DNA of 64,000 nt, taken from Jannaschia faecimaris (GTDB lineage Bacteria; Pseudomonadota; Alphaproteobacteria; Rhodobacterales; Rhodobacteraceae). Positions within the stretch are counted from its first letter, which is position 1, and each line of letters begins with the position of its first letter. The stretch spans positions 186,001 to 250,000 of the forward strand of contig NZ_FNPX01000002.1 of the NCBI RefSeq assembly GCF_900107415.1, written 5' to 3'. The notes below the pieces were generated by a model. It was not told the origin of the DNA. It made no database searches and was given only the letters and a program-made list of their open reading frames with translations. Below, one piece after another: positions 241-5,821 of the stretch. Position numbers and translations under genes: made by a program.

Positions 241-309
241 AGGGTCTTGACCCACACAAAATCTGTGCCAACCTCCTACCTGTGAAACCCATTGAAAGGA
301 GGTGATCCA

Positions 310-366
310 GTGTCAAGAAAGATAGTGGAGAAGATGGTCGGGACAACTTCGGGGATTCGCGTCTAG
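310..366 (+). CDS. Possible 18-residue peptide behind an extended Shine-Dalgarno
   Basis: A GTG at 310 sits at correct spacing behind the extended AAGGAGGTGATC and opens an 18-codon frame, VSRKIVEKMVGTTSGIRV, ending in TAG at 364-366. The spacing is the only direct support; the peptide matches no family I recognise. Translation of this frame could be what decides which of the two alternative SD-sequestering hairpins forms. It may equally be fortuitous if the SD-like run acts as an RNA-binding site instead. Confidence 0.3.
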   Translation: MSRKIVEKMVGTTSGIRV

Positions 367-435
367 GGCAGCCCTTAAACGTTTGAAACCGTTGAGGTTG
401 ATGCGTCTAACCGACCACACCTCCTGATACTTTCG

Positions 436-475
436 GAAGGCCGCCCTCTGTATTTGGGGGCGGCCTTCTTTGCTT
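436..475 (+). terminator. Intrinsic terminator
   Basis: A perfect 11-bp stem, GAAGGCCGCCC at 436-446 with GGGCGGCCTTC at 458-468, is followed by TTTGCTT. It ends the RNA element after yhhQ and separates it from arfB. Confidence 0.75.
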
Positions 476-5300: not shown

Positions 5301-5695
5301 GTGCGGGGGGCCGGACGGCCGCCGACGGGCAATCGCTTGCGATGAACGTCGGAGGAAAGTCCGGACTCCACGAAGTGACGGTGCCGGGTAACGCCCGGGC
5401 GGGGCAACCCGACGGACAGCGCCACAGAGAACAGACCACCGCGGGTTCGCCCGCGGCCAGGGTGAAACGGTGCGGTAAGAGCGCACCGGGGGGGCGGCAA
5501 CGTCCCCCGCATGGCAAGCCCCACCGGGAGCAATGCCAAATAGGGATCCCGCGTCCGCCGCAAGGCAGGCAAGGCGCTTCGCCCCAGGGGTCCGGGTTGG
5601 CAGCTTGAGGCCGCGAAGCGATTCGCGGTCCAGATGAATGGTCGTCGAACCGGAGTAATCCGGGGAACAAAATCCGGCTTACAGGCCCCCCGCAC
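5301..5695 (+). ncRNA. rnpB: RNase P RNA, bacterial type A
   Basis: The catalytic RNA of RNase P, which trims the 5' leader of precursor tRNAs. The ends form a perfect 12-bp P1 helix, GTGCGGGGGGCC at 5301-5312 with GGCCCCCCGCAC at 5684-5695. Inside are the universal blocks GAGGAAAGTCCGGACTCC, ACAGAGAACAGACC, GGGTGAAACGGTGCGGTAAG and, near the 3' end, AGATGAATGGTCGTC and AATCCGGCTTACAGG. The roughly 395-nt length is normal for alphaproteobacteria. A short T-rich run follows P1. Confidence 0.97.
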
Positions 5696-5821
5696 AACTT
5701 TTCCAAAAGATAGATGCGCCAGACTCGGCCTATGTTGCGTTTTTGTCCGCAGCGCCCTTGCAATGTCCAATATTCCTCTGAACTCTCAATTCTGCACAAT
5801 CGGTAAACAGTGGAGAGTACG

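Follow-up and report, generated by a model that had tools for sequence, protein, structure and literature searches.

CC2171 is an sRNA of Caulobacter, reportedly first described by Landt et al. in 2008, and its Rfam model, RF01867, is filed as noncoding and contains neither an SD lock nor a crossing helix. According to the portions of the literature available to us, Rfam 15 added one covarying pair for this family (PMC11701678), and a Mesorhizobium RF01867 prediction is on a list of 35 non-riboswitch RNAs with RNA-seq products for 34, the exception being a different RNA, which is indirect evidence of expression (PMC5596092). In the same portions, which do not include the original report, translation, a pseudoknot, or a 16S antisense sequence of CC2171 is nowhere described. 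Most Caulobacter noncoding RNAs stem from intergenic regions that are untranslated according to ribosome profiling (PMC4117421; CC2171 is not named in the available sections), a statement that counts against translation of the element described here. In Flavobacterium johnsoniae, rpsU, which codes for bS21, has an extended, exceptionally strong SD whose pairing with the 16S tail regulates the gene via a subset of ribosomes, as stated in the accessible text (PMC9976891). The extended SD of Staphylococcus aureus, as far as the available text goes, adds two base pairs to the SD pairing of ordinary mRNAs, in the direction of the start codon (PMC13009471). The alphaproteobacterial odc1 uORF motif is presented in the consulted sections as a structured RNA with a sequestered ribosome site, a short frame of fixed length encoding a conserved peptide of 11 residues, and a constant gene downstream (PMC8632094).

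The element compared with these systems is an RNA gene on the plus strand of Jannaschia faecimaris, at the beginning of a 64,000-nt stretch of DNA (the whole stretch analyzed, referred to below as the window). Like RF01867, it has a 5' block with the start codon, an outer stem (here P1), and a terminator, and it aligns with the model over the full length of the latter. Its SD is exceptionally strong, as in F. johnsoniae, but its frame of 18 codons does not encode bS21 and has no conserved peptide, and its ribosome site is locked by RNA. Pairing is also stretched toward the start codon, as in S. aureus, but over 17 nt and with a self-complementary partner. With the odc1 motif it shares the structured RNA, the sequestered ribosome site, and the short frame of fixed length, but not the conserved peptide or the fixed downstream gene. 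Synthetic toehold switches hold the start codon in a hairpin that can be opened by a trigger strand. The element likewise places its start codon in a hairpin that such a strand might open. It is natural, however, with the 16S tail as the putative trigger, and opening by this tail is predicted from computed energies.

The gene lies between the C-terminal part of what we take, from its sequence, to be vut (positions 1 to 240) and a gene likewise presumed to be arfB (560 to 976). Its features are listed in Table 1. TTGA was present upstream in 50 of the 59 relatives examined, 47 of which had xAxxxT behind it at a spacing of 16. Because the putative -10 box lies at 269 to 274, 16 nt behind TTGACC, the RNA would start near position 281, downstream of the ACCTCCT arm at 271 to 277, and the transcript probably extends from about 281 to 469 (about 190 nt). 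The terminator that had been proposed to close the unit was recovered by a terminator scan, with 14 pairs when G-T pairs are allowed. The minimum-energy fold has an energy of -83.3 kcal/mol (z, -5.9), and none of 200 shuffled sequences folded equally well. The element is a stand-alone gene. RNase P was the sole match at the gathering score when the window was searched with Rfam; positions 5303 to 5697 encode a bacterial class A RNase P RNA (275.6 bits).

Table 1. Features of the element, with positions in the window
Feature	Positions	Strand	Evidence or remark
-35 box TTGACC, putative	247-252	+	TTGAC upstream in 45/59 relatives; 30-locus alignment
-10 box CAACCT, putative	269-274	+	overlaps the proposed upstream arm 271-277
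Full-length RF01867 (CC2171) match	286-466	+	43.2 bits; model positions 1-159 of 159
17-nt complement of the 16S rRNA 3' tail, GAAAGGAGGTGATCCAG	294-310	+	includes SD GGAGG (298-302); core conserved
P0 5' side (SD)	297-304	+	6 counted pairs; 98.9% of cells paired
P3 5' side, UCCA	306-309	+	pairs with 326-329; start codon in loop
18-codon frame GTG ... TAG, VSRKIVEKMVGTTSGIRV	310-366	+	18 codons in 57/59 relatives, 20 in 2
P1 5' side, GAAAG, in codons 3-4	317-321	+	pairs with 430-434; crosses P0 and P3
P3 3' side, UGGA	326-329	+	99.6% of cells paired; also in minimum-energy fold
P2 5' side	335-341	+	pairs with 411-417; five counted pairs (337-341:411-415)
P2 3' side	411-417	+	covariation count; minimum-energy fold
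P0 3' side, anti-SD arm CACCTCCT	418-425	+	pairs with 297-304, 8 bp, in minimum-energy fold
P1 3' side, CTTTC	430-434	+	directly 5' of the terminator
Intrinsic terminator	435-469	+	terminator scan; stem covaries

The 17-nt match to the complement of the 16S rRNA 3' end, on which the original prediction was centered, was exact: GAAAGGAGGTGATCCAG complements CTGGATCACCTCCTTTC at every base. This 16S end was read, in antisense, in two genomes of the same family (L043 and L046); no 16S gene was found in the host assembly or in those of two genus mates (0 of 3 in all). By chance, the two strands of 3.81 Mb would contain about 0.0004 such 17-mers. The duplex between the 18-nt 16S tail and this element was computed at -32.2 kcal/mol, which is stronger than the -13 kcal/mol associated with rpsU, as calculated by a method different from that of PMC9976891.

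The element is conserved, as comparison among genomes shows. In a DNA search of 60 genomes, each of the 19 genus mates included gave a match (E value, 1.7e-21 or better), as did, more weakly, many members of the family. The exact pattern AAAGGAGGTGATCCNNTG occurred in 72 of 387 alphaproteobacterial genomes, at a single place in each, and the same pattern read backwards occurred in none of the 387. AAGGAGGTGATCCNNTG was found in 82 of 397 genomes of the phylum, namely, 80 of 161 Alphaproteobacteria versus 2 of 236 other Pseudomonadota (counted by hand). With up to two mismatches to the core, 209 of 246 genomes of the family (taken to be Rhodobacteraceae here and below) gave a match, a number that includes antisense-16S and chance places. 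Many of the family's genomes share a second place, CGAGGAGGTGATCCAGTG, which matches with two mismatches. Records from Ruegeria and Cereibacter are also of the 18-codon type, in keeping with the assignment to Rhodobacteraceae.

In a permissive Rfam search, RF01867 was aligned with the element along its whole length, with a score below the curated cutoff of 75 bits; in the whole host genome, this was the sole match of the model (E value, 1.4e-7). In a control set of 14 genomes, RF01867 also matched Caulobacter vibrioides and Deinobacterium chartae, one of them above the cutoff. All 19 loci submitted to a second Rfam search matched RF01867 (27.8 to 81.7 bits; one above the cutoff), and among 290 genomes of the class, 80 had matches at an E value of 0.01 or better, just 10 of which exceeded the cutoff. 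The stem between the first codons and the bases before the terminator is present in the element as P1, which covaries in the family and across the other families. The element is thus a diverged relative of CC2171 within a group wider than the Rfam model. Pos19, a coding sRNA of R. sphaeroides, was considered as the same RNA and rejected.

The family alignment, A1, comprised 59 rows from 64 candidates; a false hit (L144), a copy of L023 (L136), and three loci of the 26-codon type (L040, L152, and L157) were left out. The short frame proposed behind the ribosome site was borne out, with GTG at position 310, TAG at its end, and its length kept in 57 of the 59 rows. At codon 19, the family rows have TGA (25 rows), TAG (23), TAA (9), and never TGG, for which about 10 occurrences are estimated if the purines were independent. 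The first stops of the +1 and +2 frames scatter widely (standard deviations of 29 and 32 codons versus 0.4 for the true frame), so comparison shows frame length and stop to be conserved. The entropies of the three codon positions were flat (0.86, 0.92, and 0.96 in 57 rows, i.e., A1 minus the 20-codon rows L131 and L147) and gave no sign of constraint at the peptide level. The peptide as the selected product thus found no support in these entropies. In one lineage, marked by MSS-type starts, the frame is 26 codons long in 12 of 18 cases.

In the family, at least seven contiguous P0 pairs are formed in 53 of the 59 rows, with CACCTCC, CGCCTCC, or CATCTCC as the arm. P0 pairs vary on one side only in these rows, and P0 hardly covaries because there is almost no variation in the SD. 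A C after GGTG is partnered by G in 3 of 4 rows, and an A in 1 of 42. A G at this place has C as its partner in 13 of 13 rows, yet C is in any case the most frequent partner (30 of 42), which leaves the comparison of C with A as the telling one. The original prediction had proposed that an upstream or a downstream anti-SD arm closes the SD, giving two mutually exclusive states. The downstream arm is real in the minimum-energy fold and is kept, with one-sided changes; the upstream arm is not conserved, as ACCTCC is found upstream in only 11 of 59 relatives. Since the arm at 271 to 277 lies inside the putative promoter and is not conserved, a switch between the two arms is unsupported, and this arm was rejected as half of a two-state switch.

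P1 and P2 covary, and all 10 of their counted pairs have two-sided changes. P1 alone has a covariation of 0.435 versus 0.194 in shuffles, and one of its pairs is A-U in 31 rows and G-C in 28; two of five measures for P1 alone were matched by 16 and 20 of 500 shuffles. Taken jointly, P0, P1, and P2 have a covariation of 0.287 versus 0.185 (0 of 500 shuffles), and 94.5% of their cells are paired versus 36 to 53% in slid versions. P3 is near-invariant in the family, with two rows changed from A-U to G-C and weak covariation: P3 slid by +3 covaries more than the true helix (0.145 versus 0.074), and its number of pair types was reached by 500 of 500 shuffles. The minimum-energy fold contains the nested part (P0, P2, and P3). 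P1 crosses P0 and P3 and must therefore form a pseudoknot with them or exclude them, and its crossing of the SD lock suggests a pseudoknot. The competing interaction kept by relatives is that of codons 3 to 5 with the bases immediately 5' of the terminator.

A similar plan was detected outside Rhodobacteraceae. Of 106 loci, 34 were from Rhodobacteraceae and 72 from elsewhere; 65 of the latter passed the filters for a test of the GATCCNN motif, and 55 were left after removal of near-identical ones. A start-proximal GATCCNN pairs with an NNGGATC inside the frame, a P3-like arrangement in which the variable bases match: CTGGATC accompanies GATCCAG (L031), CAGGATC accompanies GATCCTG (L038), and CGGGATC accompanies GATCCCG (L048). 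The pairing score was 13.77 versus 12.49 ± 0.19 when 5' segments were permuted among the 55 loci (0 of 5,000). TCCNN:NNGGA was found in 39 of the 55 loci versus 24 ± 2.7 after permutation (0 of 2,000), and full pairing was absent from 16. P1-like pairing was evaluated for 67 loci with frames of up to 45 codons, of which 66 had a terminator and 61 were left after removal of near-identical ones. In these 61 loci, the first codons and the bases before the terminator scored 13.75 versus 11.17 ± 0.32 (0 of 5,000), with 11.34 for a reversed control; examples are CATTGTC:GACAATG, ATGAGATT:AATCTCAT, and CATGAAT:ATTCATG. P1-like and P3-like pairing elsewhere is thus shown by comparison; the relatedness of the loci inflates all covariation and permutation tests, in the family and outside. 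A cruder test of the SD helix against shuffles, at the 0.05 level, was passed by 12 of 34 family loci (control, 0 of 34) and by 16 of the 72 loci from elsewhere (control, 3 of 72). The anti-SD arm of Rhodobacteraceae is not common to the other families.

In nested folds of the family, the SD core was 2% unpaired, compared with 34% when the downstream sequence was shuffled (a control made with 30 of the 59 rows). Annealing of the 18-nt 16S tail averaged -31.0 kcal/mol over the family versus an opening cost of 9.9 kcal/mol; thus, a fully annealing ribosome tail could pay for the opening. Outside the family, nested folds, which omit the pseudoknot and have Rhodobacteraceae rows as their control, revealed no lock (SD core unpaired, 0.30 versus 0.34 in the control), and there the start codon was freer (0.52 versus 0.34) and the opening cost lower (6.6 versus 7.3). 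Because these folds show no lock, the case outside the family rests on the covarying crossing pairs.

These observations are consistent with a structured, stand-alone micro-mRNA of about 190 nt that would lock itself, be opened by the 16S tail, and be selected for the act of translation over the peptide, a reading to which we assign about an even chance. The RNA's own folds would lock the SD (through P0, in Rhodobacteraceae), while the P3 hairpin would hold the start codon in a loop that P1 would join to the sequence preceding the terminator, P0 and P1 presumably being formed together. A free 30S subunit would anneal to the 17-nt site through its 16S tail, which would invade the helices as the trigger strand of a toehold switch does. 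The ribosome would then translate the short frame of fixed length in the cell, opening P1, P2, and P3 and releasing the 3' half, and the RNA would in this way respond to free 30S subunits. In a tentative and less probable extension, the element may be a natural toehold switch with the ribosome as its trigger, in which the 16S tail pulls open a pseudoknot covering the start codon, and translation itself, not the peptide, signals how plentiful free 30S subunits are. The earlier proposal of a ribosome-sensing or ribosome-holding RNA with a locked site is compatible with all of the evidence, and the RNA is conserved far more widely than could be seen from the one sequence. Rfam lists CC2171 as an sRNA; the comparison points to one gene across much of Alphaproteobacteria, apparently translated and probably pseudoknotted, with a sequence antisense to the free 16S tail. 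Should the ribosome prove to be its ligand, it would be an unusual case of a natural RNA sensing or holding free 30S subunits, in a class that includes the SD-poor Caulobacter, in which the majority of genes have no SD, as given in the available part of PMC4117421.

Other readings account for parts of the same evidence. The 17-nt antisense sequence might hold the 30S subunit or mask its anti-SD and so lower SD-dependent initiation, the frame serving to clear or time the ribosome. The very strong computed duplex agrees with this, as does a 16S complement kept far past an ordinary SD even in lineages with different internal partners; we consider it unlikely nonetheless, given that sequestration alone needs no conserved frame length and stop and that the SD is locked in Rhodobacteraceae. 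The conserved start, length, and stop would also be expected of an mRNA for a short functional peptide, with a simply optimal SD and a regulatory fold, and E7 (59 of 59 rows), V10 (51), G11 (53), and T12 (57 of 59) recur. But these residues are no more fixed than their codons (GAG in 57, GTC in 47, and ACA in 56 of 59), GTC and GGG fall within P2, codon positions carry no signal, and the peptides vary from lineage to lineage, which makes a peptide mRNA rather improbable. We judge equally improbable a base-pairing sRNA whose 3' half, once freed by translation or binding, would target the SD regions of other mRNAs via CACCTCC: the anti-SD-like arm is retained in Rhodobacteraceae, and the 3' part weakly matches two Rfam models at scores well short of their cutoffs, NsiR4 with 15.6 bits and suhB with 12.3 bits, but the arm is absent from the features shared by other families.

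The next gene had been pointed out to be the ribosome-rescue factor arfB, and a transcription attenuator or leader of arfB was weighed. Of 30 loci, 29 have vut upstream and 23 have arfB downstream; at the remaining 7, no arfB was found next to the element. The three largest neighbor clusters among those listed (32, 32, and 26 loci) consist exclusively of family loci, and the remaining listed clusters have 3 to 16 loci, two small ones mixing family and other loci. A leader of arfB was therefore rejected as the general function, and no conserved regulated gene is found downstream. A conserved GGCARCCC after the stop does pair with the terminator arm (-13.0 versus -10.4 kcal/mol when shuffled), but this pairing is not sequence specific, with 164 of 200 permutations doing at least as well, and it is far weaker than the terminator (-23.9 kcal/mol). 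GGCARCCC was thus rejected as an antiterminator candidate, no covarying antiterminator being found, and attenuation of arfB is a very improbable explanation of the element.

Several loci depart from the common pattern. One genome (G047) has two elements of different subtypes (L047 and L102), and RF01867 matches twice in a few other genomes. In L050, L053, L074, L113, and L114, the same 16S-antisense SD precedes a frame of 55 to 58 codons in place of the short one, and these longer frames begin like an exported small protein. An MSSEI-type block was found in L200, L207, L227, and L233 (and also in G706 and G745), which are metagenome bins titled Gammaproteobacteria, Deltaproteobacteria, or Klebsiella; among these four loci, a clear terminator is absent only from L227. 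The block in these bins probably reflects mislabeled bins or transfer.
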